Below are positions 1-64,000 of a DNA stretch of 64,000 bases, in pieces. A model generated the notes under the pieces. That model was not told where the DNA came from. It saw nothing but the letters and a program-made list of their open reading frames with translations, and did no database searches. Position 1 is the stretch's first letter; each line of letters starts with the position of its first letter. The DNA is taken from the NCBI RefSeq assembly GCF_030053135.1, contig NZ_CP125653.1, positions 186,001 to 250,000 on the forward strand, in the 5' to 3' direction. A program made the position numbers and the translations under genes. Source of the DNA: Rhizobium sp. BT04. Lineage in GTDB: Bacteria; Pseudomonadota; Alphaproteobacteria; Rhizobiales; Rhizobiaceae.

Positions 1-126
1 GCGCCTGTCTCAACCGGCATCAACGCCGCGGATTGCCACCTCTTCGACGAGGCAGGCATCGCCTTCGAGCGGCGCGTGGAGCTGACCGAAATCGATATGA
101 ACGTGATCAATCCGACGGCGGCCTGA
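1..126 (+). CDS. C-terminal end of a sugar-type ABC transporter ATP-binding protein (partial)
   Basis: Frame 1 is open from the first base and stops with TGA at 124-126, giving 41 codons. The peptide contains 'DCHLFDEAG' followed by a Leu/Ile-rich tail, which resembles the end of the TOBE domain of UgpC/MalK-type ATPases ('..HLFD..G..'). In that family the protein energises import of sugars or polyols at the inner membrane. Walker motifs lie outside the window, so the call rests on the tail alone. No other transporter gene follows, so this would be the last gene of its operon. Confidence 0.5.
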   Translation, partial: APVSTGINAADCHLFDEAGIAFERRVELTEIDMNVINPTAA

Positions 127-290: not shown

Positions 291-2513
291 CTAAGCCGAC
301 TTTTCTTTAGGTTCTGGAATAGTCAGTTTGGCGATTGCTGCATCCAAATCCGCAGTTCCAGTTTGCTGCAGGATTGATGCCTGGTACGCATCGGTGAGAC
401 GCGTTTTAATGCCCGCGTTTATGGCGTCACGAAGGTACGTAATACCATCACGACCTGCTTGCAGTTCTCCCTTGATAACGGCCTCAGCACTTCCAATTGC
501 GAGCTCGGCAAGTTTTTTCGCAGAAACCTCGGCGATGTTCGCGGCAATTGATGTGTAGAGAACGCTTCCCACGCCATGGAATTGTTCGATTTCCTTCACG
601 AGAACGGTGTTCGCATTCGGGGTTGCGGGCTGGACATAATTTCCCGTTCTACTACGGGTCTCACGTCGCCAAAGCATGTCCTTCGCCTCCGCCATTGTGA
701 CATGATCTTGCAGCACAAGGATCACGGCCTTGACGCGCTGTCCTTCCTCGACGGGAACGAGGGTCGGGCTGCCTTTACGGGAGTTGCTTGAACGCGCGAA
801 TTCGACCCGGAATGGTGTCAATATACCAGCCGACATTCGCCGAGCGATAACCTTTTCGAGTTCGGCACCTGGCTCGTTGATCAATGAGCCGTATGCGAGT
901 ACTCCAATGGAGCGCTTCGGTTCTATCTCGGGAAGCTGTTTTGCGATCGCATCGACCAAAGAGTAACCTTTCCGGGTGTTCATGGTCCGTAAGGTCAAGT
1001 CCTGAAGGTGCGAACGTGACTTGATCCCCAAACACTCGGCGGCAACATCCAACAGACCCTTGTTGTCGTAGAGGGCAACGATCTTTTCGTATTCGCCCTT
1101 TACGATGTGGGTCCGGAATTCGGACAGCAGGGAGCCATAAATCTGTGCAGGGTCGATCTGAGCGGTTGCGATTTGATATTCACTCGCAAGAGCCGCGCTA
1201 TCCTTCGACTTCAGTCCGATTCGCTTGAGAGCCTGATCGATTTTTCGTTTCGTCGCGGATAATGCGTACTTCTCAGCATCGCTTGTCGCGAGTTTGAAGA
1301 CCCTTTGCTTCAGATCATTCAGGCGTTTGCTAGATTCCGCTTTGTCGAAGTGGCAAAGCGCAGCAAGTTCCTCGAATGGCTCCGGCAGCAACAGCAGGTT
1401 TTCAACCTCTGCCACTGCGAGTGCGTGGACATTTTTGGCTTTGAGGTGTTCGATCAGCCGGTCTTCACGACCATCGGCGTCAATCAACCCTGCGCAACCT
1501 AGACGGTGAAATGTCTTTTGTTTTTCCATGCTGGCGACCGCATGGATCACGCTATCGCAGCTGCCAATCGGCATTACGGTAAAGTCCTTGTAGACTGAGC
1601 GATAGATGGCAACGTCCAGACTTCCTGCATCACCCTCGGTGAAGAGCACAGGAAGCCGACTCCCCACGATGCGCGTGACAACCTCATCAGGGATTCCCGT
1701 GTCTGCGGGTATTTCCTCCAATTCCCACTGTTCACCCTGATCTCCGCTCTCGTAAGAATTGATAGCAAATTTTCGGGCCGTGGTTCGCGTCGCTGCGAAC
1801 TCAACATCGTGCGTCAGGTAAGCAAAGACACAATCATGTCGTGCAGCCTCGATTGCATCCCACATCTTCGCTAAGATCGATCGATTGATATGGAGTTCAG
1901 GCTCATCGATGAGGACAAGTGTATTCGGCCGTGCAAGCAGAGCTTGGCCGAGCATGTAGAAGATCGCACGCTCTCCATCGCTTAGCTCAGCGGCGTCGTA
2001 ATCAGCGTTGGTCGAGCCATCACTCTTGATCTTGATGTTTCCTGCTTGGATTACCAATTCGCGGTGGGGAAGGAGATCGTCCCAGATCGATTTCAACCGA
2101 TCGAGTTTGGTGGCTGGAGGAAGTACGGTTGAGTCCATGAGGTGCGCACGTCGGTGCTGGACAGATACTTCATTTTCGTCCGCATAGAGCCCTGCCACTA
2201 CATGGTCGAAGTCAGAAAGCATCGCTATCGCCGGCTTCGAGTGCCAACGATAGCCAGCGCGATTTCCGCGCCCATCTTCGTGTCCCCATATCAGCCTGTT
2301 CAAGGCGGCTTCTAGGTTGGGGGGCTGAACCTTGGTGTTCATCGACAATGATCGGTGAGCCCCAATCCGATGAACCTCCAATCGTTTTGCTTCGATCATT
2401 ACGCCGAGCCGACTCTTTCCTGATCCATTAGGACCGAGGAACAACAGCGTCTCGCCTACCTTGGCGTCGATTTTGAACTCGCCGCTCGATGTCGGCACGG
2501 ATATGTTGAACAT
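291..2513 (-). CDS. Fused ABC/OLD-type ATPase, TOPRIM (DUF4435-like) and GGCT-like protein; PARIS-like defence candidate
   Basis: The protein has 740 residues. Residues about 1-240 form an ABC-class ATPase: Walker A GPNGSGKS (27-34), signature LSDGE (177-181), Walker B LVLIDEPE (199-206) and H-loop THD (234-236). Residues about 285-400 look like a TOPRIM/DUF4435 module, with VLFTEGD (Glu293) and DAD (345-347). The C-terminal 200 residues begin with AYGSLI (YGSL 541-544), the hallmark of the gamma-glutamylcyclotransferase fold, and carry a candidate catalytic Glu near 618 in 'LWRRET'. AAA plus DUF4435 is the PARIS (AriA-AriB) architecture, in which the ATPase senses phage proteins and the TOPRIM part is a toxic nuclease. 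The GGCT-like tail is not part of the PARIS I know. G+C is visibly lower than in the neighbours, suggesting transfer. A TTG at 2516 precedes the ATG used. Defence function is inference. Confidence 0.8.
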   Translation of the reverse strand: MFNISVPTSSGEFKIDAKVGETLLFLGPNGSGKSRLGVMIEAKRLEVHRIGAHRSLSMNTKVQPPNLEAALNRLIWGHEDGRGNRAGYRWHSKPAIAMLSDFDHVVAGLYADENEVSVQHRRAHLMDSTVLPPATKLDRLKSIWDDLLPHRELVIQAGNIKIKSDGSTNADYDAAELSDGERAIFYMLGQALLARPNTLVLIDEPELHINRSILAKMWDAIEAARHDCVFAYLTHDVEFAATRTTARKFAINSYESGDQGEQWELEEIPADTGIPDEVVTRIVGSRLPVLFTEGDAGSLDVAIYRSVYKDFTVMPIGSCDSVIHAVASMEKQKTFHRLGCAGLIDADGREDRLIEHLKAKNVHALAVAEVENLLLLPEPFEELAALCHFDKAESSKRLNDLKQRVFKLATSDAEKYALSATKRKIDQALKRIGLKSKDSAALASEYQIATAQIDPAQIYGSLLSEFRTHIVKGEYEKIVALYDNKGLLDVAAECLGIKSRSHLQDLTLRTMNTRKGYSLVDAIAKQLPEIEPKRSIGVLAYGSLINEPGAELEKVIARRMSAGILTPFRVEFARSSNSRKGSPTLVPVEEGQRVKAVILVLQDHVTMAEAKDMLWRRETRSRTGNYVQPATPNANTVLVKEIEQFHGVGSVLYTSIAANIAEVSAKKLAELAIGSAEAVIKGELQAGRDGITYLRDAINAGIKTRLTDAYQASILQQTGTADLDAAIAKLTIPEPKEKSA

Positions 2514-2776: not shown

Positions 2777-3877
2777 CTACCAGACAAGCCCGCGAGCCGC
2801 GACCTCTTCGACGCGGGTCACCACGCCGCCCCCATGGAAGACCATCGTATCGAACAGGTTTGATACCACGCAGGTGTGGTTCGGGATGATGAAGAGCTTC
2901 TCGCCGATCTGCGGCCGGGGGCCGGTGCAATTTGCGAGATCGATGACGCCGTGTTCTTCCGAGAGGCTGGTGATCCGCGCTTGGGGATAACCGACGATCA
3001 GGCCGTAATCGCTAAAACCCTGAAGATCCGAGGTCAGCGCCTTCGAGCCGGCGTCGATGACGGCGCGGTCGGCGGTTGGCCGTGAGACGACGGTTGCCAG
3101 CACATGCATGGCGCAATCGTCCTCGGTGCAATGGCCCATGCGCAGCATCTGCCGGTCGTTGTAGATATAGGTGCCGGCGCGGTGTTCCGTGGCCGAGGTG
3201 ACGAGATGCGCCTCGAACAGGCTTGGCGTTCCGCCATTGCTGACGATCGGGCAGGTTATCCCCTCGGCTTTCAGTTGTGCCAGCGTTTCAGCGATGAAGG
3301 CTTCGACGGCGGCGGCCGATTGCGGCTTCGGATAGGTCACGATGCCGCCGAAGGTCAGGCCGTCGGCAGCGGCGATGCGCTTGGCGAGCGAGGCGGCATC
3401 GTCCGGTGTCTGCACGCCGCAGCGCCCGCCGCCGGTGTCGCATTCCACAAGCACGGTCAGCGGCTTGTGGCCGGAGAAATGCGCTGCCAGCCCATCGACC
3501 GTCACCTCGCTGTCGGCGACGACCTTGAGGGCCGGAATTTTCTCGTTCAGCCTGGCCAGGCGCTCGAGCTTCTGCTGTCCGAGGATGTTGAAGGTGATGA
3601 GGATGTCGCCGAAGCCGGCTGCGGCGAAGACCTCGGCTTCGGTGACCTTCTGGCAGTTGATGCCCTTGGCGCCGGCGGCAATCTGCGCGACGGCCAAGGC
3701 CGGGATCTTGTGCGTCTTGATATGCGGGCGGAAGTTCAGCCCATGCTGATCCATATAGGATTGAACACGGGCTATGTTTGCCGCCAGCCTGTCTTCGTCG
3801 ATGACAGGACGCGGCGTCGAGAGATCGGCGATCCTGTCGCCTGCCTTGGCGACGACGGCAAAGCTGGCATCATGCAT
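2777..3877 (-). CDS. D-threonine aldolase / D-serine dehydratase-like PLP enzyme (D-TA family)
   Basis: The 366-residue protein has the alanine-racemase N-terminal barrel with the PLP lysine in 'RPHIKTHK' (Lys54), and ends in a DSD1-like domain with 'PNHTC' (His334, Cys336), the HxC metal pair of D-serine dehydratase/D-threonine aldolase. The expected reaction is cleavage or dehydration of a D-3-hydroxy amino acid to an aldehyde plus glycine, or to a keto acid plus ammonia. The start codon follows directly on the stop of the upstream M81 peptidase gene (TAG-ATG), so the two are probably co-transcribed and translationally coupled. The exact substrate cannot be read from sequence. Confidence 0.85.
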   Translation of the reverse strand: MHDASFAVVAKAGDRIADLSTPRPVIDEDRLAANIARVQSYMDQHGLNFRPHIKTHKIPALAVAQIAAGAKGINCQKVTEAEVFAAAGFGDILITFNILGQQKLERLARLNEKIPALKVVADSEVTVDGLAAHFSGHKPLTVLVECDTGGGRCGVQTPDDAASLAKRIAAADGLTFGGIVTYPKPQSAAAVEAFIAETLAQLKAEGITCPIVSNGGTPSLFEAHLVTSATEHRAGTYIYNDRQMLRMGHCTEDDCAMHVLATVVSRPTADRAVIDAGSKALTSDLQGFSDYGLIVGYPQARITSLSEEHGVIDLANCTGPRPQIGEKLFIIPNHTCVVSNLFDTMVFHGGGVVTRVEEVAARGLVW

Positions 3878-61565: not shown

Positions 61566-62177
61566 TTACCGTCCTCGTTCTGGCGTCCAGATCCATTGCT
61601 TGGGCACCAAAACTTCGAGCCGATCTCCTTCAACGACGTTGCCGCCGAGTTCGATGGTGCAGAGTAGACCTCGAAGGGTGGCCGCCGCCGCAACGAACTC
61701 AAGTTCTAAGTTGCTACGGTGAGGATAGAACTCTTTCACCGCCGCGCCGGAGCCCCGACACGGGTATGTCCTGTCTTCGACAAGAATACATCCGCCGTTG
61801 GGCAGACGCATTCTTGTTCCGCGTGGAAGAGACGAAAAGTCTTCTAATCCACTGATCAAAAAATTGGCATTTAGCCATTCCGGGTCAATTTTCGATATTC
61901 CCAATGACACTGCTAGGGCGTCGAGATCTTCGACGGAGAGCATACTGATTTGTCTCTGATTCCTGATTTCGGTGTCTATAGGAAGCCAAGGTACTCGTCG
62001 GTCGGATGTTCGGGTGAAACCTCGATATTTCGAGTTTCTTGTGGACTCATGAACTATCCCCTGAAGGTCCAACGTAAGTTCGCCGACTCTTGATGTGTAC
62101 GAACTCCCTTCAGCGCGGACATAGAGGCCTGTGACAAAGCACTCAGTCTTAAATTTCTCTGTGCTGTTACTGATCAT
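61566..62177 (-). CDS. MOSC domain-containing protein
   Basis: The 203-residue protein fits the MOSC fold, with 'RQISMLSVEDLDALAVSLG', 'DPEWLNANFLISGLEDFSSLPRGTRMRLPNG' and the conserved Cys in 'RTYPCRGSG'. MOSC proteins bind molybdenum-sulfur cofactor species and reduce N-hydroxylated compounds or carry sulfur. GGGAAA precedes the ATG. It follows the P450 gene by 51 bases on the same strand, so they may act together. Confidence 0.8.
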   Translation of the reverse strand: MISNSTEKFKTECFVTGLYVRAEGSSYTSRVGELTLDLQGIVHESTRNSKYRGFTRTSDRRVPWLPIDTEIRNQRQISMLSVEDLDALAVSLGISKIDPEWLNANFLISGLEDFSSLPRGTRMRLPNGGCILVEDRTYPCRGSGAAVKEFYPHRSNLELEFVAAAATLRGLLCTIELGGNVVEGDRLEVLVPKQWIWTPERGR

Positions 62178-62228
62178 TTTCCCGCGAGTTGAACCTGATA
62201 TCTGATAGTGTTGGTGACTAGCGGGCCT

Positions 62229-63260
62229 CTATCGCCAGCGTGGTTGGGCTAACGAAGGCGCTGTGCTCAATTCCCTCTGTCTCTTACGTGCGTTAAAGTC
62301 ACGCACCGTGGAAACAGGGCCCGTCAGGTCGATTGCTCCCTCTACTTCGAAAACGCGCTCAAATTTAGAGGAACGCGCTTCAACCAGCAGATCGTCCAGG
62401 AAGTCGATTGCAGGCGCGAACCCTAAACACATGTGACGGCCACTGCCGAACGTAACCCCAAGGGCTTCGCGCTTATTGTTCTTTTCTAAGAGCGCACCGT
62501 TACACCGTAGCACGTCGATACCCACCCACCTGGGTTGTTCCTGTTCATCAGGATATAGTCTGTTGATGAAGCGGAAAGGCGGCATCTTCCCAAGGGCATC
62601 GAGGAGAAACCTCTCGCGTTCGGGACGAGACAGATCCCTGCCCGCTTCCAGTTCAGCGGCTCGATATAGTACGCTGGTCGCTGCGGCGATCATCGGCGTG
62701 TAGGAATCGATCAGTAGGTTCATGATCGCTCCTACGTCATTTCCTCGACGTATTAGAGCGCCTACCAATCCATCCGAAGCAAAACGTTCGGACCCAAAGA
62801 AATTATCGATGTAGGACAACGCTTTCGCTGCTTCATCGACCTTAGTGTAATCATGGAATATTACCAGTTCGATCAGCGGATCGGACATTTGCATCAATTC
62901 CAGATCCGCCTCTAGGCTGACGCCGAAATACATCGAGTGCCAGCGTAAGACTGCCATCATCAGATCGTCAGCGGTTATGCGATCTCTCCTAAAGAGTTCA
63001 GCTAGACTCGCGCGAACCATGTCACGCTGCTTGTATTCGTAGCTGCTGATACTTTCCAACAGCCTCTTCCTGACAGCCAAGTGCCTCTCGCCGTCGTTGT
63101 ACATGGGCCATTGCTGAAAAAAGCGCTCGACCTGGGCCGCAACCAATGGGTCTATGCGTGCAATCTTGTCGTAATCTTCTCGTTTCCTGTTCGCTATCGC
63201 ATGGGGGCAACCCAAAATTCTGGTAGCCTCATCAAACGTACTGACGATCCTTTTTTCCAC
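62229..63260 (-). CDS. Short divergent cytochrome P450
   Basis: The 343-residue protein has the heme-thiolate loop 'FGSGRHMCLG' (Cys278) and an N-terminal P450-like region ('FFQQWPMYNDGERHLAVRKRLLESIS'). It is about 50 residues shorter than usual bacterial P450s. Where the K-helix ExxR should precede the PP motif the sequence reads 'DALGKMPP' (221-228), so the otherwise near-universal Glu and Arg are replaced. A GTG start follows GAGGGGAG. It is 12 bases after an MFS gene. The substrate is unknown. Confidence 0.8.
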   Translation of the reverse strand: MEKRIVSTFDEATRILGCPHAIANRKREDYDKIARIDPLVAAQVERFFQQWPMYNDGERHLAVRKRLLESISSYEYKQRDMVRASLAELFRRDRITADDLMMAVLRWHSMYFGVSLEADLELMQMSDPLIELVIFHDYTKVDEAAKALSYIDNFFGSERFASDGLVGALIRRGNDVGAIMNLLIDSYTPMIAAATSVLYRAAELEAGRDLSRPERERFLLDALGKMPPFRFINRLYPDEQEQPRWVGIDVLRCNGALLEKNNKREALGVTFGSGRHMCLGFAPAIDFLDDLLVEARSSKFERVFEVEGAIDLTGPVSTVRDFNARKRQRELSTAPSLAQPRWR

Positions 63261-63272
63261 AATGCTCCCCTC

Positions 63273-64000
63273 TTAACTGCGTTGGCTTCTAAGGCGCGAG
63301 TTGCGTGCATATTCGGTGGACATCGCGGCTACCCCAATCACGACGACGAGAGCCGCGAAGGCGAAGACCGAACGGTAGTTGAAGCTCGCCGCGTACCCGA
63401 ACAGAACAGCGCTTGCGGCGGTGGCAGTGACTGAGACGACGTCGATCAGCGAAGTGGAAAGGCCGAGGCGTCCCGGTATCACTTCCTGCAAATACCCTAT
63501 CGAGACGGAAATGAGGCAGGCAGCCGCTACGCCGTTCAAGATCTGTAGGCCAAGCAATTGAATGGGCGTGGCAACTACCGAGACGAGGAGGAGGTAGATG
63601 GCAAACAAGAGCGCTGAAAACGCAATTACCGCTACTTTGCCGTAACGACCTGCCAAAGTCCCCCAGAAAATGATTAGGGGCACCTCAACCAGCGCCGGAA
63701 TAGAGACCGCGTAGCCGACGTCGCTTGCGGTCCCTTTTAGGTCGTTCAAGACAAACAACGGGATCGCCATACCGGAAAGCGTCAGCCCTACCCGGATACA
63801 AATCATTCCCAACACGCCAAGCCAGACGTCACGCACTGTTTCCCAATTGATGGGCTGCGGAGGCGTCGGCTTCGTTTGCGTATCCCTTAGATCGTTGGCT
63901 CGATTCGAAAACCAGATGCATCCGAAAATCGCCGCCACGAGTGTGTATAATGCCGGAACCAGCAGCAGAATAGAGTAAGCGGAGTACTTTGCGATAACGA
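63273..64000 (-). CDS. MFS transporter, SET-like (partial, 5' end outside the window)
   Basis: The reading frame is open from the stop at 63273 through the window edge. It encodes at least seven hydrophobic segments, with 'NDLKGTASDVGYAVSIPALVEVPLIIFWGTLAGRYGK' corresponding to the central MFS loop of the second half. It resembles SetA-type sugar efflux pumps. It is the upstream partner of the P450 and may export the product or import its substrate. Confidence 0.78.
   Translation of the reverse strand, partial: VIAKYSAYSILLLVPALYTLVAAIFGCIWFSNRANDLRDTQTKPTPPQPINWETVRDVWLGVLGMICIRVGLTLSGMAIPLFVLNDLKGTASDVGYAVSIPALVEVPLIIFWGTLAGRYGKVAVIAFSALLFAIYLLLVSVVATPIQLLGLQILNGVAAACLISVSIGYLQEVIPGRLGLSTSLIDVVSVTATAASAVLFGYAASFNYRSVFAFAALVVVIGVAAMSTEYARNSRLRSQRS

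Follow-up and report, generated by a model that had tools for sequence, protein, structure and literature searches.

What could be the role of the ~200 residues that a Rhizobium protein bears at the C-terminal end of its PARIS anti-phage core? The question is raised by an open reading frame lying at positions 291–2513 on the minus strand of the window, i.e., the 64,000-nucleotide stretch of Rhizobium sp. BT04 DNA analyzed here; it encodes 740 amino acids followed by a stop codon and begins with the ATG at 2513, a TTG one codon upstream being an alternative start.

The PARIS core

According to the available portions of the published work (PMC9122126, PMC12409363), in PARIS AriA holds AriB until a trigger such as Ocr releases it, whereupon the freed AriB cuts tRNA and growth stops; the same portions indicate that single-gene PARIS fusions are already known. 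The single-chain PARIS-like core that a first-pass annotation had attributed to the gene is borne out by the PADLOC AriAB profile PDLC02982, which matches residues 4–531 with an E value of 2.1e-117 over profile positions 29–568 of 570. Pfam DUF4435 is recognized at residues 288–485 (E 3e-8, passing the cut-off) and AAA_21 is also matched; a sequence search of the solved structures with the whole protein returned ABC transporter-like ATPases only. The gene and the parts of its core are:

291–2513, minus strand: whole gene, single-chain PARIS (AriA-AriB) with a C-terminal GGCT/ChaC-like domain, 740 aa
1704–2513, minus strand: ABC/OLD-type ATPase part, AriA-like, about residues 1–270
2412–2435, minus strand: Walker A, residues 27–34 (motif and alignment)
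1902–1907, minus strand: Walker B Asp203-Glu204 (motif and alignment)
924–1652, minus strand: DUF4435/TOPRIM part, AriB-like, residues 288–530 (Pfam, PADLOC)
1635–1637, minus strand: TOPRIM Glu293 (motif and alignment)
1473–1481, minus strand: TOPRIM D345-A-D347 (motif and alignment)

The Walker A, signature, Walker B Glu and H-loop of an ABC/OLD-type ATPase are all present in the tailed protein, as are the Glu and the DxD of DUF4435/TOPRIM; the core motifs are GPNGSGK at 27, LSDGE at 177, DEPELH at 203, THD at 234, EGD at 293 and DAD at 345, the last two falling exactly where the first-pass annotation had placed Glu293 and DAD 345–347. K33, S178, G180, D203, E204, H235, E293, D300, D345 and D347 are invariant in all 16 rows of the alignment in which they were compared. 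An ABC/OLD-type ATPase and a DUF4435/TOPRIM part on one chain are what the protein has in common with the single-gene AriAB fusion of Rousset et al. 2022 (PMC9122126), as described in the available part of that paper, whereas the ~200 C-terminal residues with a GGCT/ChaC fold are an addition of the Rhizobium protein.

The C-terminal domain

The features of the tail are:

318–917, minus strand: GGCT/ChaC-like domain, residues 533–732 (predicted structure, profile alignment, conservation)
882–893, minus strand: YGSL loop, residues 541–544 (motif, profile alignment, conservation)
660–662, minus strand: Glu618, candidate catalytic residue, in 138 of 138 sampled relatives (motif, profile alignment, conservation)
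447–449, minus strand: Asp689 of the DGI-YL motif, in 138 of 138 sampled relatives (conservation)

The predicted structure, which had been set beforehand as the test able to refute the GGCT-like tail originally proposed, displays a GGCT/ChaC fold, the ChaC branch giving the best match, and the structural alignment yields ~17% identity with ChaC-type enzymes such as human ChaC2 and the yeast enzyme 5hwk. The YGSL and the candidate Glu near 618 of the first-pass annotation could likewise be located, the former in an LAYGSL loop at 541–544 and the latter, Glu618, within WRRE; a further YGSL at 459 belongs to the PARIS part and is unrelated to the tail. With hhalign, the YGSL and the Glu of the tail align to the two ChaC proteins of the same genome (E 8.7e-6, probability 83%). 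ChaC-type enzymes split glutathione into 5-oxoproline and Cys-Gly, and the Glu to which Glu618 aligns is catalytic in ChaC. RRE and Asp689 are present in all 138 sampled domains, although both these counts and the tree of the domain were built from best hits (the best 120 of 1903) and therefore favor close relatives.

On the other hand, the profile search of the C-terminal part against GGCT/AIG2/ChaC families, which the first-pass annotation had proposed as a check, gave nothing: with residues 531–740 or 518–740 no Pfam family, ChaC/GGCT included, was matched up to E 10, so that the tail is to be considered ChaC-like and not filed as PF04752. A sequence search of the solved structures with tail alignments found no GGCT chain. 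The tail thus differs from the ChaC enzymes (human ChaC2, yeast 5hwk) in having no Pfam match and conserved motifs of its own (VEFARSS, RRE and DGI-YL); furthermore, unlike these glutathione-specific gamma-glutamylcyclotransferases, it is fused to an immune ATPase-nuclease.

Tailed and tailless PARIS

The domain is carried by 11 of the 120 closest PARIS proteins, one of the 11 being truncated; the set comprises the protein of the window itself plus 119 of the 120 best hits listed for it, an identical copy having been excluded. The 109 tailless proteins have a median length of 540 aa, 98 of them falling within 520–560, and the tail starts at the point where this short form ends. All 10 full-length tailed proteins, 53–81% identical to that of the window, keep both YGSL and E618. 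On the AriAB tree the tailed proteins require three changes, at least two of which are forced by well-supported branches, implying gain and loss or repeated gain.

A standalone GGCT gene beside tailless PARIS was considered and rejected: in a scan of 80 genome loci with the GGCT profile (six frames, ORFs of at least 40 aa, many of the loci having short flanks) none was detected at E ≤ 10 save the two loci of the own genome. No GGCT domain was found at E ≤ 1e-3 in 15 viral PARIS loci, 128 loci with many short flanks having been scanned in all. The lack of the tail in 109 of the 120 closest relatives, together with the lack of the domain in the flanks of 80 short-form loci, indicates that PARIS does not need it.

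The tail family outside PARIS

The tail profile retrieves 1903 proteins at E ≤ 0.001, in a search covering proteins of 0.55–1.75 times the query length, and reveals that the domain exists also as a standalone family of ~200 aa. Among the best 120 of these 1903 relatives none has a Pfam domain and a few are named “cation transport regulator ChaC” by their source; relatives are also found in a record labeled as archaeal (P0159), which may count against chemistry of the glutathione type. The domain is rare, being matched in 3 of 247 family genomes (one of the three matches being a fragment) and in 2 of 146 genomes of Mesorhizobium, the genus of G073; two further samples (n = 247 and, own genome apart, n = 398) yielded nothing, and these low counts are lower bounds, several genome samples having been scored for few first-look candidates per genome. 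An 82-aa open frame (L085; G086:C76:31071–31232) contains the first part of the GGCT domain only and is probably a remnant.

The same domain is found on a second immune-type protein. In G1430 it occupies the C-terminus of a protein that measures 768 aa when read from the start adopted here and 854 aa in its database entry; the fused protein cluster, P0242, is labeled Mesorhizobium sp. M0563. All 106 other relatives found for the second-fusion protein are without the domain; they stop near residue 637 of P0242 (median over 105 alignments, with a median of 6 residues remaining), and the domain, which starts at 653, is appended to the natural end of a family of ~640 aa from another predicted system. 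Pfam Permuted_GreAB-C is matched above its cut-off by some of these relatives, P0242 itself matching nothing. In the midpoint-rooted tree of the domain the P0242 tail is nested inside the PARIS-tail clade, with an SH-aLRT of 97 for a nine-row set outside which the PARIS tails P0009 and P0008 branch at 91 and 94, a position implying that the tail moved between immune proteins. In Mesorhizobium (L112:9937–17668) the Permuted-GreAB-C-type protein with the GGCT tail forms, with two other genes, a predicted immune operon; one neighbor is PIN-TPR-GreABC-like (27.1 bits, just below the cut-off of 27.8) and the other is an alpha/beta-hydrolase protein with HTH_upst_double_PIN. Of the three operon products, PADLOC recognized only the third, as DUF626_VIII (E 4e-27).

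Apart from the window, six independent loci are flanked by enough sequence for their context to be judged; three are defense-like, the second fusion (L112) being one of them, one is mobile-element-like and two are neither. In two loci (L095, on a Mesorhizobium plasmid, and L113, in G1473), which represent a single lineage since they are 98–99% identical across three genes, the GGCT gene is directly upstream of a HamA-like gene followed by a HamB-like gene, with spacings of −4 to +6 bp and with RES-Xre, HipA and a restriction endonuclease annotated nearby. The HamB-like helicase is recognized by PADLOC (E 6e-46) and matches a solved HamB over its full length (E 3e-17), shorter matches to Ski2-type helicases scoring higher. 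This arrangement recalls Hachiman HamAB, as presented in the available part of PMC12278908, although HamA is recognized only weakly (PADLOC E 0.008 and no PDB match, with a GEAK motif resembling the D-E(X)K of HamA) and two Mesorhizobium HamAB relatives, 49–55% identical, are without the GGCT gene, which counts against an immune role of the latter. On a viral contig (L094) the GGCT gene precedes that of an MkoA-like helicase, followed by McrB-like and McrC-like genes, these last two identified by eye. Two standalone loci (L109 and L096) show no defense genes within the flanks seen, and this too counts against such a role. A lone, reversed GGCT gene is found in the order of G982 at L108:9638–10243 and L111:645–1250, at the same place among conjugation-like genes (by eye).

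That GGCT might be a phage gene was likewise rejected: apart from one IMG/VR locus, neither the phage collection nor two further scans yielded the domain. A viral fold library gave nothing for the tail at E ≤ 0.001; its two top-scoring rows bear GGCT-like names and come from large eukaryotic viruses.

Possible functions of the tail

If PARIS can do without the tail, what might the tail contribute? The first-pass annotation had proposed that it could act on a signal, as a second toxin or as a brake. The explanation that we favor, with a confidence somewhat short of even, is that the gene encodes a horizontally acquired, single-chain PARIS abortive-infection protein with a modular GGCT/ChaC-like tail at the natural C-terminus of AriAB, this tail being a second chemistry that would release 5-oxoproline from a gamma-glutamyl compound, with glutathione as the most likely substrate. 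The tail is thus best read as an auxiliary enzymatic arm of defense: the ABC ATPase would sense the phage trigger, the TOPRIM domain would cut RNA (in the PARIS of E. coli, tRNA) and a further reaction would be added by the tail on the same chain, so that infected cells would in addition be deprived of redox buffering or of a protective conjugate, the loss of glutathione adding to growth arrest. Directly observed are the architecture and the folds, the conservation of the putative active sites, the hotspot insertion and the recurrence of the tail with other immune genes, whereas enzymatic activity of the tail on such a substrate, its link to activation and any phage phenotype are what we infer. 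The genome encodes two ordinary ChaC proteins, which counts against the auxiliary arm and at the same time argues against a housekeeping need for the tail. A good case, to be put cautiously, can also be made for a wider immune module: the ChaC-like GGCT domains of the tail family, present on PARIS, on a Permuted-GreAB-C-type protein and in an operon with Hachiman-like genes, may constitute a transferable unit adding gamma-glutamyl (glutathione) chemistry as a second effector or as a gate.

The tail could instead be a regulator that keeps the PARIS core silent, or else primes it, by binding or turning over a small gamma-glutamyl metabolite (glutathione, for instance), the system thereby reading the redox state of the cell or a change that the phage causes in this state. 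Its fusion in cis at the chain end would suit this function, as would its joining cores with nuclease parts of their own (TOPRIM; PIN-like and HamA-like neighbors), for which a brake would be of more use than a further effector; yet 109 of the 120 closest PARIS proteins function, or in any case survive, as tailless forms, the likely active-site residues found in 138 of 138 sampled rows exceed the needs of a pure binding role and, by eye, standalone copies lie on conjugative-element-like DNA with no adjoining nuclease core. Regulation appears unlikely. Unlikely, too, is a tail that counters a phage counter-measure or detoxifies, the partner system being enabled to act, or the cell to survive, once DNA, RNA, protein or a metabolite has been stripped of a modification or conjugate of the gamma-glutamyl type. 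Indeed, its recurrence beside systems of differing mechanism and as a lone gene in mobile DNA is what a helper untied to one core would show, but the phage collection is without the domain, the viral fold library is without a match at E ≤ 0.001, and in the available portions of the published PARIS work (PMC9122126, PMC12409363) no such modification is tied to PARIS.

Finally, the tail might be a hitch-hiker devoid of any immune role, acquired when a metabolic ChaC-like gene happened to become fused at the C-terminal end. Its rarity (3 of 247 family genomes, one with a fragment) and the two standalone loci with no defense genes in view are compatible with such an accident, which is nevertheless quite improbable given that ten diverged full-length tailed PARIS proteins (53–81% identical) retain the domain and its key residues, that the same domain clade was independently appended to another immune-type protein and that three of the six other independent contexts are defense-like.

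We know of no other immune system in which a core that cuts RNA is combined with chemistry on glutathione or gamma-glutamyl compounds, and the literature searched yielded no counter-example; should the tail prove active, PARIS would be the first known to pair the two. The recurrence of the tail with unrelated immune genes enables a direct test, offering one domain, one candidate catalytic Glu, natural tailed/tailless pairs and a standalone form next to Hachiman-like genes. The first-pass annotation knew of no described PARIS with a GGCT tail, and in the literature searched (without the main 2024 PARIS structure papers and most subscription papers) none was found tying GGCT or ChaC to PARIS or to any other defense system, “cyclotransferase” and “GGCT” occurring 0 times in PMC12839542, PMC7159879, PMC8195603, PMC12799240 and PMC12278908; in view of this incomplete coverage, the novelty of GGCT-tailed PARIS is likely, not proven. 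New here are the gene as a hotspot insertion and the tail as a module on PARIS, on a Permuted-GreAB-C-type protein and, standalone, before Hachiman-like genes. A parallel exists with the recurrent nuclease-protease accessory gene pairs, which, in the available part of PMC12799240, are likewise one module taken up by several unrelated immune systems; their chemistry differs from that of the tail, and “cyclotransferase”, “GGCT” and “glutamyl” occur 0 times in the main text.

The insertion site

The gene occupies ~2.4 kb of inserted DNA at a hotspot of ~0.5-Mb Rhizobium plasmids:

203–2628, no strand: approximate insertion in the Rhizobium hotspot, the edges being the last and first positions still matching congeners (local alignments)
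1–126, plus strand: left flank, end of a sugar ABC transporter ATP-binding gene (L002:13927–15126)
2777–3877, minus strand: right flank, Ala_racemase_N / D-ser_dehydrat protein, a D-TA family PLP-dependent enzyme in named plasmids

The flanking DNA matches 221 plasmid records, 129 of them from Rhizobium and 112 with coverage of 80% or more. When a 4,951-base query across the gene was compared with 60 genus genomes (own included), both flanks were found in relatives and, among the matches listed, no row of another genome spans the stretch between them; the flank pieces are 9 to 47 bp apart in G1594, G1575, G1563 and G1556 and 12.9 kb apart in G1586. These near-empty sites, together with the base composition (GC 0.531 and GC3 0.576 for the gene, as opposed to a GC3 of 0.70–0.82 for nine neighboring genes), agree with the lower G+C and the transfer that had been suggested at the outset. 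An attachment site was sought and rejected: there is no tRNA in the window or in a 19-kb flank, and the only longer direct repeat (32 nt, 75%) falls within the terminal parts of the flanking genes and is probably due to chance.

The other condition named as refuting by the first-pass annotation, a purely housekeeping context, describes the immediate neighbors, which are metabolic (the operon of a sugar ABC transporter and a D-TA/M81/RpiR/SDR/MFS group), but not the site, where congeners carry known defense systems. Clear PADLOC defense hits occur in 9 of 19 congener regions, these having been chosen for sequence between the flanks or for a near-empty site and scanned through 28 of their 73 ORFs, chosen by eye. 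The hits comprise a PNP-nSTAND protein, DarT-DarG, PD-Lambda-4 with DUF2971, a dCTPase-type defense protein with a kinase, NsnA, NsnA-NsnB, Avs3 (E 1e-214), a DrmD-like helicase with AbiU/AIPR and type III R-M, and Cap4-HamA with HamB; in terms of named systems they include DarTG and Hachiman. A tenth region (L150) gave only a weak LmuA match (E 2e-8 over about 58 residues). In named records, R. leguminosarum pRLG202 has the PADLOC candidate PDC-M54AB at the same site, three others having small, metabolic or unnamed genes only. The window insertion and loci L141–L159 thus delineate a genus-wide hotspot, from the sugar ABC transporter gene to the D-TA family gene, occupied by many different defense systems and representing a place to seek further defense genes in Rhizobium plasmids. 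At L154:1871–5661 of this hotspot a Cap4 nuclease is fused to HamA and adjoins HamB, an arrangement resembling AbpAB as given in the available part of PMC12278908.

A second stretch of low G+C (0.52–0.55 per kb) lies at 61566–63938 of the window, where a 343-aa ORF containing FGSGRHMCLG is found beside an MFS-like ORF. We take this motif to be a P450-like heme motif.
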